NCBI GenBank assembly: GCA_026985515.1
Contig: JALSQH010000141.1
Coordinates: 1 to 11,429 of the forward strand
Length of the DNA stretch: 11,429 bases
Reading direction: 5' to 3'
Source: a bacterium
GTDB taxonomy: Bacteria > JALSQH01
Below, piece after piece: positions 2,700 to 9,354 of this stretch; the stretch's first letter is position 1, and each line of letters opens with the position of its first letter. The notes under the pieces are model-generated. The model searched no databases and was not told the origin of the DNA. It worked only from the letters and a program-made list of their open reading frames with translations. A program made the position numbers and the translations under genes.

Positions 2700-4197
2700 A
2701 TATCTCCTCATTGCCATTCTCGTCACAGGTCTGTTAATTGGGTGTCACAAAAAGAAGTTCAATCCGGGGGAAATTATTGTGGGACTTGAGGGAAGTCCCT
2801 CAATTTTTGATCCAAGGCTTGCCACAGATGCATATTCTGCGAGGATAAACTCACTCATATATGATGGGCTGGTGAGGATAAATGAGAGGGGGGAAATTGC
2901 ACCTGATCTTGCCGAAAAATGGGAAATAAAAGGGAAAAAAGTTATCTTTCACATCAGAAAAGGGGTGAAATTTCACAATGGTAAAGAGCTCACCTCCAGA
3001 GACGTGAAGTGTACCATAGAGAGCATTCTTCATTCCCCCTCCCCTTACCGGAACAGCCTGAATACAATTGAGAAGATTGAAATACCTGATAGATACACTG
3101 TAATTCTCCACCTTAAACAGATTTTTGCTCCCCTTCTCACCGCTCTTGCTGTTGGAATAGTACCCTGTGGAGATGACCCGGACCACTTTAAACCTGTGGG
3201 AACAGGTCCATACATGTTGAAGGAGTTTAAAAGGGGAGAGGAGGTGGTTCTGACGAGATTTGAAAACTATTTCCTGGGTACTCCCCACCTCCAGAAAATA
3301 ATTTTTAAAGTGATCCCTGACGACACAACAAGAATCATGGAACTCGAAAGGGGGGAAGTCTCACTACTCCAGAACTCAATCCCTCCAGATTTCCTTCCTG
3401 AGTTAAAGAAAAACGGGGAAATAGAAATAGTTATCAAACCTGGGGTAAATGTCTCGTATCTTGGATTCAATCTTAAAGACCCCATCCTTTCCCGGGTAGA
3501 GGTTAGAAAAGCTATTGCTCTTGCAATAAACAGGGATGAAATTATAAAACATCTCCTGGGAGGACTTGCAAGTAAGGCCAGCTCCATTATATCTCCACAA
3601 CTCTGGGCATATACACCTGTCACTGTACCTGGATATGACCCGGAGAAGGCAGAAAAACTTCTTGACAGGGCTGGATACAAAAGAGGTGCTGATGGAATAA
3701 GATTTTCACTGGAGTACAAAACATCCACAAACAGATTGAGAAGAAGAATAGCAGAAGTGATAGCAAGGCAACTGGAAAGGGTGGGAATCAGAGTGAAAGT
3801 GAGGAGTTATGAATTTGGAACATTTTTCAGTGACATAAGGAAGGGGAATTTTCAAATCTACTCACTAACCTGGGTGGGAATAACCGATCCTGATATTCTT
3901 TACTACGCCTTTGATTCCCACAGCATTCCTCCCGAGGGAGCAAACAGGGGTCATTATCACAATGAAGAATTTGATAAACTTGTTGAAGAGGCAAGACATA
4001 CCTTCAATAAAAATAAGCGAAAAAAACTCTATGCAAAGGCTCTTAAAATACTTGCAGAGGACCTTCCCATTTATCCTCTCTGGTATCACTTTAACATAAT
4101 CGCTTACAGAAAGGGCCTCAGGGGCATAAAGATTCATCCGGGGGGAGATTACTATTTTCTTAAAGATGTGTACTGGCTGAGATCCTCCGGAAAGTAA
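2689..4197 (+). CDS. Family 5 (Opp/Dpp-type) ABC transporter solute-binding lipoprotein
   Basis: This 502-residue protein resembles the SBP_bac_5 family, which captures peptides, nickel or some oligosaccharides outside the cytoplasmic membrane for an ABC importer. The N-terminus is a lipoprotein signal: basic MKFK, a hydrophobic stretch and the lipobox LIGC with lipidated Cys19. The family motif around LAEKWEIKGKKVIFHIRKGV (residues 74-93) followed by KFHNGKELTSRDV is clear, as is PVGTGPYMLKEF (169-180); YDPEKAEKLLDRAGY further on is also typical. The GTG start follows a strong AGGAGG. No permease or ATPase gene is adjacent: the next gene is cheA on the opposite strand, overlapping the 3' end by 46 bp. 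It may therefore be an orphan binding protein, or pass ligand information to the neighbouring receptor; that is speculation. The ligand cannot be told. Confidence 0.93.
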   Translation: MKFKYLLIAILVTGLLIGCHKKKFNPGEIIVGLEGSPSIFDPRLATDAYSARINSLIYDGLVRINERGEIAPDLAEKWEIKGKKVIFHIRKGVKFHNGKELTSRDVKCTIESILHSPSPYRNSLNTIEKIEIPDRYTVILHLKQIFAPLLTALAVGIVPCGDDPDHFKPVGTGPYMLKEFKRGEEVVLTRFENYFLGTPHLQKIIFKVIPDDTTRIMELERGEVSLLQNSIPPDFLPELKKNGEIEIVIKPGVNVSYLGFNLKDPILSRVEVRKAIALAINRDEIIKHLLGGLASKASSIISPQLWAYTPVTVPGYDPEKAEKLLDRAGYKRGADGIRFSLEYKTSTNRLRRRIAEVIARQLERVGIRVKVRSYEFGTFFSDIRKGNFQIYSLTWVGITDPDILYYAFDSHSIPPEGANRGHYHNEEFDKLVEEARHTFNKNKRKKLYAKALKILAEDLPIYPLWYHFNIIAYRKGLRGIKIHPGGDYYFLKDVYWLRSSGK

Positions 4198-5906
4198 CTC
4201 CAGAGGATTCCGGGATGGATCAGAAAAGAGGGTTCACCATTTCTGAAAAAGTAGCCATAAAGATAGGGTACTGACCTGAAATCAGATGGTAATTCTCTAA
4301 CAAGAACCATATCAATCTCTTCCACTTCCTCAATAAAATATCCAAGATATTTCCCTCTAAACCCAAAGATAAGTGCTGTCCCGGATGGCACCCCCTTTAC
4401 CTCTATCTTTTCTCCTCTAAACCTCACATTATCTGGATCATCCACTGAAACAAGTGCCTCAACCATATAAGAGGGGAAAGCCACCCTTTCTCCATTCATC
4501 ATCACAATTACCACATTCTGAAGAATCGCTGATCTGGGAATTTTGATTGTAAAAACAGTGCCTTTACCTCTCTCGCTTTCCACATATATAAAACCATAGA
4601 GTTTCTGAACCATCTCCTTTACAGCATCAAGTCCCACCCCCCGGCCAGCTATAACATCCTTATTTTCCGAGGTGCTCATTCCCGGATGGAAAAGATACTG
4701 AAGGATTTCACTTTCAGAAAGATCTGCGATCTTCTCCTTCTCAACCAGACCCATCTCAACAATTTTTTCCCTGACCCTCTCAATATCCACACCTCTTCCA
4801 TCATCTGAAACCCTGATCTGAAATGCATCAGGAAAATCCTCTGCCTCTATTTTAACTATTCCAGCTGGAGACTTGCCCATCTCTCTCCTTTCCTCGGGAG
4901 TTTCAATACCATGATAAACTGCATTCTTAATAATATGCACAAGTATGGAGTAAAGTTTATCAACCACCCCTCTATCGATCAAAACCCCTTTATCAACAAT
5001 GGTGAGTATTACACGCTTTCCAAGTTCCTTTGAATAACTCTGCACCATCTCTTTCAAACCATCTTCAAGAATTTTCAGTGGTACCATCCTTATGTCAAGA
5101 AGCCTGTCATACATTTTCTCCACAAGCATATCCAGTTTAAAGGAAAGATCATCATCCGGATCAAGTTTTCTTTTTATCTTCTCTTTGAGAAGAAAGAATT
5201 GTGTGAGGTCATCCATCAATCTATCAAGATCATCGATTCTTACTCTTAGCGTTTCCCCCAGAAGGGGCTTTTGCTCTGGAGATTCTACAGGAGAAACATT
5301 TACTCCTATTATTCCCTTTTCACCTTCCAGGAGATTATAAAGTTTCCCCACATTTCCCTTTACAATAAGAGATAGAGGATTGGGATATTCACCCTTTTTA
5401 AGCAGGTTCTTATCTGCGTTGCTTCTGTAAATCTCAAGTTCCCTTCCAATATTTCTGATGAGTTTAAAAATGGTAGCTGATGGCATGGGAAGCGAGGATG
5501 AAAGGAAAATATCAACTTTAAATGTGCCTTCCCCTGAAGAAGTTTCTTTAATTACAGGAACCAGGCCTTCTTTCTTCCCCTCTTTTTCCTCTTTCTCTTC
5601 TAACTCCACCCCACTCTCAATATATCTTTCAATCATTCTTTTTATTTCCCCGTAGATTCGGGAAATTTCCTCTCTTCCTTTTTCAAAGGCACTGATGGAT
5701 GAAAAGTACTCCTCAAGTCTGTGAATTTTTTCAACAGTTCTGCTCAATCCCACTGTGGCACACATTCCCTTCAGAGAGTGGGCATGCCTGTAGGCTTCAG
5801 CAAGTTCTTTTTCACCGGGAAGGGAACCGGAAATTACGGATTCAATACCTTTTAGATGCTCCTGAGCTTCCTCAATAAATAATTCTCTCAGTCTTTCCTT
5901 TCTCAT
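4152..5906 (-). CDS. cheA: CheA-type chemosensory histidine kinase
   Basis: This 584-residue cytosolic kinase is coupled to a chemoreceptor; it autophosphorylates on a His of the P1 domain and passes phosphate to CheY. Domains in order: P1/Hpt (1-100) with AHSLKG and phospho-acceptor His43; a charged linker; a P2-like regulator-docking domain (about 128-205); P3 dimerisation helices (217-275); a P4 ATPase with N-box HIIKNAVYHG (324-333), DDGRG (368-372) and GRGVGLDAV (421-429); and a CheW-like P5 (459-575). Asn328 is kept, but Tyr331 stands where most CheA proteins have Asp (N..DHG). It is somewhat shorter than the enterobacterial protein. Its ATG overlaps the CheY stop as ATGA, with no clear ribosome site, so translational coupling is likely. 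The 3' end overlaps the convergent solute-binding gene by 46 bp. It could serve taxis, pili or another output. Confidence 0.93.
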   Translation of the reverse strand: MRKERLRELFIEEAQEHLKGIESVISGSLPGEKELAEAYRHAHSLKGMCATVGLSRTVEKIHRLEEYFSSISAFEKGREEISRIYGEIKRMIERYIESGVELEEKEEKEGKKEGLVPVIKETSSGEGTFKVDIFLSSSLPMPSATIFKLIRNIGRELEIYRSNADKNLLKKGEYPNPLSLIVKGNVGKLYNLLEGEKGIIGVNVSPVESPEQKPLLGETLRVRIDDLDRLMDDLTQFFLLKEKIKRKLDPDDDLSFKLDMLVEKMYDRLLDIRMVPLKILEDGLKEMVQSYSKELGKRVILTIVDKGVLIDRGVVDKLYSILVHIIKNAVYHGIETPEERREMGKSPAGIVKIEAEDFPDAFQIRVSDDGRGVDIERVREKIVEMGLVEKEKIADLSESEILQYLFHPGMSTSENKDVIAGRGVGLDAVKEMVQKLYGFIYVESERGKGTVFTIKIPRSAILQNVVIVMMNGERVAFPSYMVEALVSVDDPDNVRFRGEKIEVKGVPSGTALIFGFRGKYLGYFIEEVEEIDMVLVRELPSDFRSVPYLYGYFFRNGEPSFLIHPGILWSYFPEDLSQYTSLRK

Positions 5907-6265
5907 TTAAAAAGCTTATTCACCACCTTCTTTATATCTCTTCTGGAGAAGGGCTTCACAATGAATTCCTCAGCTCCCGCCTCAAGAGCTTCAACCACCA
6001 CATTCTTCTGACCCAGGGTGGTTATAACGATTATTTTTGCATCGGGATCCTTCTCCTTTATCTCCTTAATTGCATCGATTCCATTCTTGCCCGGCATGAC
6101 GATATCCATGGTCACAAGATCAGGCTTCAATTCCTGGTAGAGGTTAACTGCTGAATCCCCATCAAACGCTTCACCAACCACCTCAAAATCAAGGGATGTA
6201 AAAATCTCCTTCAACTTTTCCCTCATAAATCTCGCATCATCAGCAATCAAAACTCTCCTCTTCAT
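5903..6265 (-). CDS. cheY: CheY-like single-domain response regulator
   Basis: This is a stand-alone receiver domain of 120 residues, the normal CheY length, expected to accept phosphate from the adjacent CheA. Acidic pocket Asp9/Asp10, acceptor Asp54 in TMDIVMPG, Thr82 and Lys104 (VKPF) are all present, so the phosphorylation chemistry should be intact. There is no output domain, so it must act by binding a partner such as a motor or pilus component. I chose the ATG at 6265 because GAGGAG lies four bases upstream and homology starts right after it. An in-frame ATG at 6298 would add 11 unrelated residues and overlap the upstream gene. There is a 16-base gap to the CheW-like gene and a 4-bp ATGA overlap with cheA. 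Confidence 0.92.
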   Translation of the reverse strand: MKRRVLIADDARFMREKLKEIFTSLDFEVVGEAFDGDSAVNLYQELKPDLVTMDIVMPGKNGIDAIKEIKEKDPDAKIIVITTLGQKNVVVEALEAGAEEFIVKPFSRRDIKKVVNKLFK

Positions 6266-6281
6266 AACTCTCCTCACACCT

Positions 6282-6611
6282 TTATTCTGCAAATTCAATT
6301 ATCCTGTAACGCTCCCCACCATACAAAAGCCAACCTTCTTCCTGTTCCACCTTTTCGTCTTCAACTGTCGCCAGGATTCCCTCAATCTGAATCGTCCTTC
6401 CTCCTCTGAGAAAAAGGAAAAGCATGTGTTCTGCATTAACTCTGTTAATTATAGCATAAATTTTCTCCCTGAAAACAACTGCCCCCTTCAAATCTTTCCC
6501 CCGGTAAAAGGGTATTGAAAAAACCTTCTCCACCTCCTCCACACCATCAACCCTTTCCAGAGGGACTGCCAGAAGTGACCCATCAGAGCTTTTAACCAGA
6601 AAATACTTCAT
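6282..6611 (-). CDS. Short CheW-like coupling protein (divergent)
   Basis: This 109-residue protein is probably the adaptor linking receptor to CheA. The evidence is partly positional: it lies between a receptor gene and cheY-cheA. In sequence, the pattern LLAVPLERVDGVEEVEKVFSIP (13-34), a KGAVVFREKIYAIINR stretch (42-57) resembling the CheW 'G.....R..I.pvidl' strand, and LFLFLRG..TIQIEGILATV (64-83) fit the SH3-like CheW fold. It is much shorter than a usual CheW (about 140-170 residues), and the conserved glycines are weak. It starts with ATG immediately after the receptor's TAG stop (TAGATG), so translation is probably coupled. An alternative is an unrelated small beta protein of the same operon; structural comparison with CheW would settle it. 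Confidence 0.6.
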   Translation of the reverse strand: MKYFLVKSSDGSLLAVPLERVDGVEEVEKVFSIPFYRGKDLKGAVVFREKIYAIINRVNAEHMLFLFLRGGRTIQIEGILATVEDEKVEQEEGWLLYGGERYRIIEFAE

Positions 6612-7874
6612 CTATGTCCTGAATCTCATCACAAGTTGTCTCAGTTTCTCAGTTGACTCGTTTAACTTTTTCACTTCTTCGTAGATTTTCCCAAGGTATT
6701 CCACCTCATATTCGATGGACTTTGCTATTTCACTAAGGGAAATGGTTGTTTCTCTTGATATGGACGACGCCCTTTCAACATCGCCCGACACCGAATCAAT
6801 TATTCTGCTCCCCTCAATAAATGAGGTCCCTATTTCCTTTATGCTTTTTGTAAAGCCATCAATATTATCTGAAACATTTTCAATTGCTTCATAAACATTG
6901 TCAAGGTTACTCTTCCCCTCTGTAACACTCTCACTGGTTTCCTCAATTGTGCTCCTGACAGCATTGCTTTTTTCTTTCAATTCTTCCATCACATTTCTGA
7001 TTTCAGAAGTGGAATTTTTCGTATGAATGGCGAGATGTCTTATCTCCTCTGCAATAACAGAAAAACTCTCGCCATACTCACCGGCTCTCGTTGCCTCTAT
7101 GGCTGCATTTACAGCAAGTATATCGGTTCTTCTCGCCACATCATCAATTATCTCAACAAGTTCTTCAATCTCCTTTAATTTTCCAATCAGGGAGAGCATC
7201 CCGCTGCTTGAATTCTCAATGTTTGAAAGAACTCTTTTAAGATCGCTGATAAGCTCCTCTACATTCTGCAAAATTCTCTTGCTTTTCCTTCCTGCTTCAT
7301 CAGAGAGTTTTAAAATATCCATAACCTTCTTCACCTCTTCTTTCATCCTCTTCCTCAAATTTCCAAGAGAATCATTAACATTTTCAAAAATGTCCAGCTG
7401 CTCTTCCGCCTTCTTCACCAATCTCCTTGCCGAGCTGCCCACCTCTTCTGCCGCCACAGAGATGTTTTCAGATGATTCAAGAATATTTTTGGAGAGTTCA
7501 TCTATCCCAAAGGAAACATTTTTTATCTCTTCAACCATTTCCCTCAGCCCTTCCCTCATGTTGAGAAGTTCGCTATACAATTTTGCAAGCTCATCATCAA
7601 AGAATCTCTTGAAAGAAGGAGTGTAACCGAGATCACCTTCTCTGATCCTTCTTGTAAAATTTCCAAGGGTTTCAACTGCCCTGTCAAGGGACCTTGACAT
7701 CAGGATCCCTATGATGAGACCAACAGTTATGGCAATGGCAATTGAAACAACGTTGTTGTACCACTCTCCCGGATTCAACCACTCAACCAGCACAAAACCA
7801 AGGATAACTGAAACAATCACAAAGAGAAAGGCAAAAATAAACTGATAGCCGATGTCAATTTTCAGTTTTCTCAT
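6612..7874 (-). CDS. Methyl-accepting chemotaxis protein without an extracytoplasmic sensor domain
   Basis: This 420-residue receptor has two membrane helices (about 11-31 and 42-60) joined by only some ten residues, so no periplasmic ligand domain fits between them. A HAMP-like segment follows (about 60-115), then a long coiled-coil signalling domain. The kinase-control tip is recognisable as DILAVNAAIEATRAGEYGES (251-270); Asn256, Glu260, Arg263 and Glu266 keep the usual residues, while the normally Gln/Asn-containing approach reads ARRTD. The C-terminus (LVMRFRT) lacks a CheR-docking pentapeptide. The ATG at 7874 follows GGAGAGG. This is the first gene of the chemosensory operon and has its own promoter. 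It probably senses a membrane, cytosolic or partner-borne signal. Methylation is doubtful because no cheR or cheB is nearby, though they may be elsewhere. Confidence 0.93.
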   Translation of the reverse strand: MRKLKIDIGYQFIFAFLFVIVSVILGFVLVEWLNPGEWYNNVVSIAIAITVGLIIGILMSRSLDRAVETLGNFTRRIREGDLGYTPSFKRFFDDELAKLYSELLNMREGLREMVEEIKNVSFGIDELSKNILESSENISVAAEEVGSSARRLVKKAEEQLDIFENVNDSLGNLRKRMKEEVKKVMDILKLSDEAGRKSKRILQNVEELISDLKRVLSNIENSSSGMLSLIGKLKEIEELVEIIDDVARRTDILAVNAAIEATRAGEYGESFSVIAEEIRHLAIHTKNSTSEIRNVMEELKEKSNAVRSTIEETSESVTEGKSNLDNVYEAIENVSDNIDGFTKSIKEIGTSFIEGSRIIDSVSGDVERASSISRETTISLSEIAKSIEYEVEYLGKIYEEVKKLNESTEKLRQLVMRFRT

Positions 7875-7967: not shown

Positions 7968-8291
7968 ATGAAAACACTCTTCTATTGTGAGGAACTCAAT
8001 TACAGAAGCGTGAAATTTGATACTCGAATCTATTCCCTTGATCAGCGGTATGTTATTACCAGAGACAACAAAAAGTACTTCACAAGAGTAACCAGCATCA
8101 AATTCAACAGAGATGGTACAAGAGAGATCATTCTGGAACTGGAAAAGGACAATGTCAAAAGAGAGGAGAAAAAAATACCTGTTGAAGTTTCAACCCCTGT
8201 ACCCTCATGGATAGACAGATTAATAAGGGACATTGAAGGGAAAAAAGGAAGGGTTTACTGGCACAGGAGAAGAAGAAAAAGGAAGTATTAG
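7968..8291 (+). CDS. Unrecognised small protein with a highly basic C-terminal tail
   Basis: I do not recognise this 107-residue protein. It has no signal peptide or membrane helix. Residues 1-75 look beta-rich, with alternating hydrophobic and polar residues (for example RYVITRDNKKYFTRVTSI and EIILELEK); residues 80-90 could form a short amphipathic helix (WIDRLIRDIEG). The end is strikingly basic: KKGRVYWHRRRRKRKY (92-107), which would suit binding to nucleic acid or another polyanion; that is inference. The single Cys7 has no partner. The ATG follows a strong AAGGAGGG. It is transcribed divergently from the receptor operon and followed 59 bases later by the Sm-like gene, which has its own promoter. 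A DNA- or RNA-binding accessory role is the best guess. Confidence 0.8.
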   Translation: MKTLFYCEELNYRSVKFDTRIYSLDQRYVITRDNKKYFTRVTSIKFNRDGTREIILELEKDNVKREEKKIPVEVSTPVPSWIDRLIRDIEGKKGRVYWHRRRRKRKY

Positions 8292-8293
8292 TC

Positions 8294-8320
8294 TTGACAA
8301 TTTTAAAAAAGTGTTATAAA
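8294..8320 (+). promoter_or_regulatory. Predicted promoter with consensus -35 and extended -10 upstream of the Sm-like gene
   Basis: A perfect TTGACA (8294-8299) begins two bases after the preceding stop codon. An extended -10, TGTTATAAA (8312-8320), follows with a 15-bp spacer to TATAAA; TAAAAC at 8317-8322 would give 17 bp but fits less well. The leader is roughly 20-25 bases. Confidence 0.6.
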
Positions 8321-8334
8321 ACTTTTTGTGTCAA
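8294..8334. repeat. Imperfect inverted repeat over the promoter (operator or hairpin candidate)
   Basis: TTGACA (8294-8299) is mirrored by TGTCAA (8329-8334), and inside these AAAAAGT (8306-8312) is mirrored by ACTTTTT (8321-8327) around TTATAA. The two halves differ in length by several bases. The repeat encloses the predicted -10, so it could be an operator; as RNA it would be a weak, AT-only hairpin, unlike a normal terminator. Confidence 0.4.
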
Positions 8335-8350
8335 AGGCAGGTAGGTGGAT

Positions 8351-8560
8351 ATGGCAAACATACTGAAGGAACTGGAAAGGAAAAATGTGATTGTCTATTC
8401 TATGGGGGTAACATACAAGGGAATTCTCATTGAGGCAAATGAGACTGAGGTTTACCTCAGGACCCAGAATGGATGGGTCACCATCCCCATGGACAGAATC
8501 GCAAAAATAGCCCCTGCACCAGAGGAAAAAGATTTCACTGGAAGAACAAGAAAAAAATAA
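8351..8560 (+). CDS. Small Hfq/Sm-like candidate protein
   Basis: This 69-residue protein has a layout that resembles the Sm fold: a short helix (ILKELERK, 4-11), then strands NVIVYSMG, VTYKGILIEAN, EVYLRTQNG and WVTIPMDRIAKIAP. Aligned by eye with Hfq it shares the helix-to-strand entry, a G.x.G.(I/L) turn and the final I..I.P strand, but has PMDRI where Hfq has its YKHA motif. The tail KDFTGRTRKK is basic and probably disordered. I infer an Sm-like RNA-binding or assembly module; no database search was possible. I prefer the ATG at 8351, with AGG at 8343-8345 as ribosome site, over the GTG at 8345. It lies just before ttcA and behind its own promoter. Confidence 0.75.
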   Translation: MANILKELERKNVIVYSMGVTYKGILIEANETEVYLRTQNGWVTIPMDRIAKIAPAPEEKDFTGRTRKK

Positions 8561-8574
8561 TTTCCTGTCCATAA

Positions 8575-9354
8575 GTGGAAACAATTTTCGGAAAATGTGT
8601 TAATCCCGCCTTTATTGCTCTCAGAAGGAGAATTTTCAAAAGAGCCGGGGAGGCAACCAGAAAGTTCAAACTTATAGAAGAAGGTGATAGAATCCTTATA
8701 GGTTTTTCGGGGGGAAAAGATAGTTTTGTGCTGGTAGACTACCTGCACCACCTCAGATTGAGCAGACCAGGAAAATTTCAGATAGAAGCTGCCATGGTTG
8801 ATATGAATTTTCCAGAAGAAGAAGTGAATTTTATCAGGGGGATTCTGGAAAAGAATTCAATTCCTTTTCACCTGATTCCATCTAAAATACCCTCCATTGT
8901 AACAGGTAAAATGGAAAATCATAAAAATGCATGTGTGCTCTGTTCAAGACTCAGAAGAGGGCTACTGTACTCCTTTGCAAGGGAACACAGATTCAACAAA
9001 CTGGCACTGGGTCATAACGCCGACGATGTAATAGAAACTCTCCTTCTGAATCTCTTTTATAATGGCAAAATAAAGGCAATGTCTCCCCGCTTTCTCAATG
9101 ATGATGGCGATCTGATTGTAATCAGACCCCTCTACTATGTGATGGAAGAAGACACTCGAGCATACGCCAGAGAGTTAAATTGGAATGTTATCAACAATCC
9201 TTGCCCCCTCCAAAAATTCCGCGGGGAAAAGAGGGAAATTATAAAAAAGATACTTAAAGAACTTGAAGAAGATTTTCCCGCTGTTAAGAAAAATATCATC
9301 AGATCGCTGGAAAAAATCGAGAAAAGATTTTTACCTCCCCCTCCAGACTCATAA
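8575..9354 (+). CDS. ttcA: TtcA-type tRNA 2-thiocytidine synthetase (PP-loop ATPase)
   Basis: The family thiolates cytidine 32 in tRNA anticodon loops, using ATP to activate the base and an iron-sulfur cluster. This 259-residue protein has the PP-loop SGGKDS (45-50), CVLCSRLRRG (120-129) with Cys120 and Cys123, LGHNADDVIETLLLNLFYNGK (145-165) and VIRPL (182-186). Cys210 in NNPCP fits the third cluster ligand. EEGDRI..GFSGGKDS is very close to E. coli TtcA; the long C-terminal extension of that protein is missing. The start is GTG at 8575, directly after an in-frame TAA and without a clear ribosome site; there is no other standard start before the PP-loop. Fourteen bases separate it from the Sm-like gene, so co-transcription is likely. 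Its end overlaps the convergent kinase gene by 6 bp. A related PP-loop thiolase specificity is possible. Confidence 0.9.
   Translation: METIFGKCVNPAFIALRRRIFKRAGEATRKFKLIEEGDRILIGFSGGKDSFVLVDYLHHLRLSRPGKFQIEAAMVDMNFPEEEVNFIRGILEKNSIPFHLIPSKIPSIVTGKMENHKNACVLCSRLRRGLLYSFAREHRFNKLALGHNADDVIETLLLNLFYNGKIKAMSPRFLNDDGDLIVIRPLYYVMEEDTRAYARELNWNVINNPCPLQKFRGEKREIIKKILKELEEDFPAVKKNIIRSLEKIEKRFLPPPPDS

Follow-up and report, generated by a model that had tools for sequence, protein, structure and literature searches.

The locus examined here raises the question of whether a short open reading frame, carried on a bacterial contig of 11,429 nt (the whole of which we call the window), encodes a relative of Hfq. 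A preliminary description based on the letters of the sequence had proposed a miniature Hfq-like protein that lacks the YKHA motif and might belong to a new branch of the Sm family. The frame runs from ATG to TAA at 8351-8560 on the forward strand and translates to MANILKELERKNVIVYSMGVTYKGILIEANETEVYLRTQNGWVTIPMDRIAKIAPAPEEKDFTGRTRKK (69 aa). This is a real gene and not a chance reading frame, since a homologue lies between the same neighbours in a sister genome (locus L002, JALTID010000078.1) and the substitutions separating the two copies are of the coding type. The two proteins are 83% identical. Their genes differ at 50 bases, distributed 6/8/36 over the three codon positions, so that 36 of the 50 fall in third positions; counted by codon, 30 differences are synonymous and 11 non-synonymous (dN 0.09, dS saturated). 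ATG 8351 is the likely start because the upstream in-frame GTG at 8345 is out of frame in L002. The promoter-like element listed in the table has the counterpart TTGACA-17-TAAAAA in L002, and we count it as inferred because a consensus scan, which demands T at position 6 of the -10 element, does not include it in its list. An Rfam search of the window matched no family.

Features of the window, with the basis for each assignment
Feature	Position	Strand	Basis or remark
CheA-like kinase, response regulator, CheW-like and MCP genes in a row	4152-7874	-	conserved in L002
107-aa protein (MKTLFYCEELNYRS...RRRRKRKY) with very basic tail	7968-8291	+	upstream neighbour
Promoter-like TTGACA-17-TAAAAC between the 107-aa gene and the 69-aa gene	8294..8322	+	read from sequence; inferred
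RBS-like AGGTGG	8343..8348	+	read from sequence; present in L002 too
CDS, predicted Sm-fold protein, 69 aa + stop	8351..8560	+	ORF, purifying selection vs L002, predicted fold
N-terminal helix, residues 2-8	8354..8374	+	DSSP on AlphaFold2 model
Strands 1-3, residues 12-17, 20-29, 33-38; Sm1-like half with V13, Y22, G24, E31	8384..8464	+	model and family alignment
Strands 4-5, residues 41-46, 50-55; Sm2 position	8471..8515	+	AlphaFold2 model and family alignment
TtcA-like PP-loop tRNA thiolation enzyme	8575..9354	+	NCBIfam TtcA 1.5e-72, 244 bits, under the cut-off of 272

AlphaFold2, run on an alignment of only two sequences, predicted the 69-aa protein as a monomer with a pLDDT of 78, rising to about 87-89 over residues 11-50. 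Of the five models, two scored badly, at about 47. The neighbouring 107-aa protein, given the same two-sequence treatment as a control, reached a pLDDT of only 39. DSSP assigned the elements H2-8, E12-17, E20-29, E33-38, E41-46 and E50-55 to the model, which thus shows a helix at the N-terminus followed by the strongly bent barrel of five strands typical of the Sm fold. The helix-strand order, the G-V-x-Y-x-G-(I/L) turn and the I-x-x-I-x-P ending to which the preliminary description had drawn attention are all seen in the protein. The term "miniature", however, is misleading, as 69 aa is an ordinary size for an Sm core.

In a Foldseek search of the predicted model Hfq chains headed the list (TM 0.68-0.75), with E-values of only about 2e-3, as one would expect of a chain this short, and with a few unrelated diheme cytochrome rows among the matches. 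When the Foldseek matches were realigned with VIA-align, the best 50 PDB entries listed were all Hfq, archaeal SmAP or Sm/LSm (Z 8.2-9.0), the first of them superposing at 1.2 A over 57 residues (Z 9.0); RimP chains were not among these 50 and may rank lower. The model makes it very probable that the protein has the Sm fold. Convergence among small beta barrels, with the protein having some other fold or going unexpressed, could be argued from the two-sequence alignment and the two poor models, yet it is very unlikely given the coding-type substitutions, a broad family, a best model at pLDDT 78, the uniformly Sm-type entries among the best 50 and independent sequence matches to SmAP, LSm6, SmF, SM-ATX and RimP-C. 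No confident fold other than the Sm barrel emerged from AlphaFold2 or from the structural realignment, so the proposal of an Sm-family branch without YKHA stands.

Fold kinship with Hfq includes core size, helix-first topology and a conserved glycine in strand 2 in addition to the predicted fold itself. In contrast, the Hfq domain model PF17209 and both Hfq motifs are missing from the window protein. At E<=1 hmmscan did not match PF17209 to the 69-aa protein, and a genome-wide search with PF17209 gave no match at 8351-8560. The helix reads ANILKELERK where Hfq has Q-D-x-F-L-N, and the region aligned with the proximal-site residues YKH(A/S) reads IPMDRI. The loss of YKHA and its replacement by PMDRI, as had been pointed out, are therefore borne out in this protein, and YKHA is absent throughout the family of homologues described below. 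In that family the Asp of Hfq Sm1 becomes N, G or S and is followed by a near-invariant Glu, and GW-x-x-IP-x-x-x-I stands where Hfq has YKH(A/S) and archaeal Sm proteins have their IRG signature. A separate observation is that the family profile matches a canonical Hfq (YKHAIASISKA, L027/L046) at E 4.4e-5; no other direct sequence link between the two groups is as good.

The profile comparison with Sm and Hfq families that the preliminary description had suggested was made with hhalign and a family alignment of 34 members. It gave a probability of 22% over 38 columns against Hfq (10 rows), 3.4% against SmAPs, the first row of which was checked against the PDB, and 1.7% against a CheW-like control. 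Against the C-terminal domain of the 30S-assembly factor RimP (RimP-C, 6 rows) the probability was 95.7% over 52 of 59 columns; these RimP-C sequences were picked by Pfam from the same genomes, independently of the family's own profile. The bacterial proteins with an Sm fold that a review mentions are Hfq and RimP, the latter through its C-terminal domain; the review gives this domain an Sm fold made up of a helix and five strands and calls RimP a monomer (PMC9032327). RimP-C (PF17384, DUF150_C) and the family have this helix-plus-five-strand architecture in common, and their nearly full-length match, the best among the profile-profile comparisons, includes a G-x-L...E...IP..I pattern. RimP models match up to 13 of the 34 members in the Pfam/NCBIfam scan, and the Pfam RimP C-domain model scores 14.7 on the window protein alone, under its cut-off of 26.3. 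RimP differs in having an extra N-terminal alpha/beta domain, which the 69-aa protein lacks, and in core charge: the mean core net charge is -4 in the family, compared with +1.5 in the RimP-C sequences used here and +0.6 in Hfq. The window protein is itself basic (pI 9.4, net +3, with an RTRKK tail). Judging by sequence profiles, the family is likely nearer to RimP-C than to Hfq, although the alignments behind this placement are modest (6 RimP and 10 Hfq rows) and structure alone puts Hfq/Sm chains on top. We considered whether the gene could be a RimP fragment and rejected the idea: its start is clean, its surroundings are conserved, and the same genome has a RimP of its own (G000:C223).

Further relatives are more distant. 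MM0924 (NF041655) matches 19 of the 34 members (best E 1.3e-6) and DUF6897 (PF21838) matches 20 (best E 1.5e-4), weakly but over nearly the full length, whereas the window protein remains below both cut-offs (15 of 45 bits and 13-13.5 of 23.9, respectively). In the literature library searched, no paper named either family. Weak matches to SM-ATX, LSM14 and GatD_N follow behind MM0924, DUF6897 and RimP-C. Searched against PDB sequences, the family profile put the archaeal SmAP3 (1m5q) at the top of its list (E 0.006) and also matched SmF and LSm6. These proteins resemble the family in fold (Z 8.2-8.9) and in the N-terminal half, "L.GK.V.V...G..Y.G.L", but the sequence matches end after strand 2 and the IRG of Sm2 is missing, the family having I-P-M/V there; in the window protein I45-P46-M47-D48 occupies the place of the Sm2 signature I-R-G-(D/N).

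Profile searches found homologues of the 69-aa protein across many lineages. In one phylum, that of genome G124, the family occurs in 95 of 245 genomes (about 39%, one likely RimP match having been removed). Several loci were set aside as spurious, secreted or RimP-type matches (L003, L011-L012, L028-L032), and L013/L025 carry a divergent member. The family motif is L-x-G-K-x-V-x-V-x-A-x-G-I-x-Y-x-G-x-L-x-E-x-x-E-x-x-V-x-L-x-x-x-x-G-W-x-x-I-P-x-x-x-I-x-x-I. Across the 34 members V13, Y22 and G24 are invariant, and E31 (31/34), W42 (30/34) and P46 (29/34) nearly so; at position 47 M or V is commonest, with the consensus IP[MV][ED]xI. The label of a new Sm-family branch is fair, since the fold is predicted to be Sm and no Pfam or NCBIfam model reaches its cut-off on the window protein. 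What had been called Hfq-like is an unnamed Sm-fold branch, widespread and conserved in bacteria, that is not Hfq and whose clear kinship with Hfq is one of fold. Similarity of fold to Hfq is, by itself, no ground for annotating such a protein as Hfq. Conserved C-terminal tails, such as YVDPSFYK, KFVDSSFYFN and YDPQSFWDEKF, were seen in L008, L009, L021, L033-L036, L005 and L062. A mobile or viral origin of the gene was considered and rejected, as there were no matches in IMG/VR, GenBank phages, PLSDB plasmids or PADLOC. Among the members, eight have a match to phrog_18244, which carries no annotation (best E 7e-8).

A check for a canonical hfq elsewhere in the window's genome, also proposed in the preliminary description, found none by PF17209; the genome is 97.6% complete, so that absence of hfq is likely, short of proof. 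Genomes G001, G015, G124, G150, G179 and G288 also carry the family without a PF17209 match, and about half of the family-bearing genomes checked first have Hfq. In the phylum of G124, Hfq is present in 77 of the 95 carriers, and the positive association of the family with Hfq in the 245-genome sample is confounded by phylogeny. Because of this co-occurrence the family is not a general substitute for Hfq, although substitution could occur in lineages without hfq, such as that of the window. Extra pairs of adjacent Hfq-domain matches beside a canonical hfq were noticed in several genomes of family f268 in the same phylum (G441:C354:1159-1545, G423:C8, G456:C70 and relatives); this suggests tandem double-Hfq proteins.

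One could imagine a ring-forming Sm RNA chaperone that fills the role of Hfq in this hfq-less genome through a different, family-specific RNA surface. The superposition of the predicted fold on Hfq at about 1.1-1.5 A, the missing PF17209 matches in the window's genome and the six others, the basic protein with its RTRKK tail and the one genuine Hfq reached by the family profile all agree with this reading. It is nevertheless unlikely in view of the 77 of 95 carriers with Hfq, the missing QDxFLN and YKH, the acidic core of most members and the closer profile match to RimP-C. A matchmaker of sRNA and mRNA is probably not what this protein is, because it lacks both RNA-binding signatures of Hfq and belongs to a family with an acidic core.

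Gene neighbourhoods offer another view of function. The TtcA-like gene starts 14 nt downstream of the 69-aa gene in the window; the spacing is 0 nt in L002 and 28 nt in L005/L088 of G015, the single sampled genome of its phylum, whose TtcA-like protein shares 40% identity (E 4e-59). TtcA-like adjacency was found in none of the 39 other regions examined. The TtcA-like gene is a probable operon partner. Upstream, the 107-aa protein has no Pfam or NCBIfam match at cut-off, and the one further copy found, in L002, is 59% identical to it; the row of CheA-like to MCP genes diverges from this gene and the 69-aa gene. In the phylum of G124 the family gene often adjoins der or yihY and faces rsmE-dnaJ-dnaK-grpE-hrcA, the der context representing one clade and no independent events. 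Other neighbours vary widely and include MATE transporters, an aminopeptidase, FAD oxidases and M50 proteases, and this variety weakens any function deduced from operons.

The explanation we favour, to which we give an even chance, is a stand-alone RimP-C-like Sm module docking on a partner in translation or RNA maturation. The single-domain barrel would use the family-conserved patch around Y22, E31, W42 and P46 to dock on a partner, either a protein or an RNP, that takes part in maturing tRNA or ribosomes; for the lineage of the window, the most plausible such setting would be the TtcA-like tRNA thiolase made from what is probably the same operon. A role in translation or RNA maturation, taken alone, has slightly less than an even chance and is supported by the pairing with TtcA, seen in two lineages that are not related, and by the clustering with der, rsmE and dnaJK in a further phylum; TtcA itself as the physical partner is improbable. 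The docking module has to be reconciled with RimP-C cores that are not acidic, unlike those of the family, and with the basic window protein (pI 9.4), which leaves room for RNA binding in its branch.

Another possibility is a purely protein-binding SH3/Tudor-like adaptor barrel, whose partners would depend on lineage and be encoded next door, RNA being uninvolved. The great diversity of abutting genes (der, yihY, MATE, M50 protease, FAD oxidase, aminopeptidase, TtcA) and the acidic core would suit such an adaptor, as would an FXR2 Tudor domain hit by the profile at nearly the same E-value as SmAP (0.0068 vs 0.006) and the lineage-specific tails such as YVDPSFYK, possible linear binding motifs. 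We regard it as rather unlikely, since pairing with TtcA is found again in unrelated lineages and the gene neighbourhood is in several cases linked to translation or RNA.

Going beyond the docking module, the family could constitute a third class of bacterial Sm protein beside Hfq and RimP-C, one that forms its own rings, acts on tRNA or rRNA precursors with lineage-specific enzymes such as the TtcA-type thiolase and provides the main Sm ring in hfq-less genomes; we hold this to be quite unlikely. A third, unnamed class of bacterial Sm protein, often encoded beside genes for ribosome or tRNA maturation, would extend the scope of Sm proteins in bacteria. The 69-aa protein is a small and easily expressed target for asking whether Sm barrels other than Hfq form rings and bind RNA.

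At the other end of the window, positions 1-403 are apparently non-coding and without an Rfam match, and hold two direct copies of a G-rich 177-nt repeat, 93% identical and spaced 226 nt.
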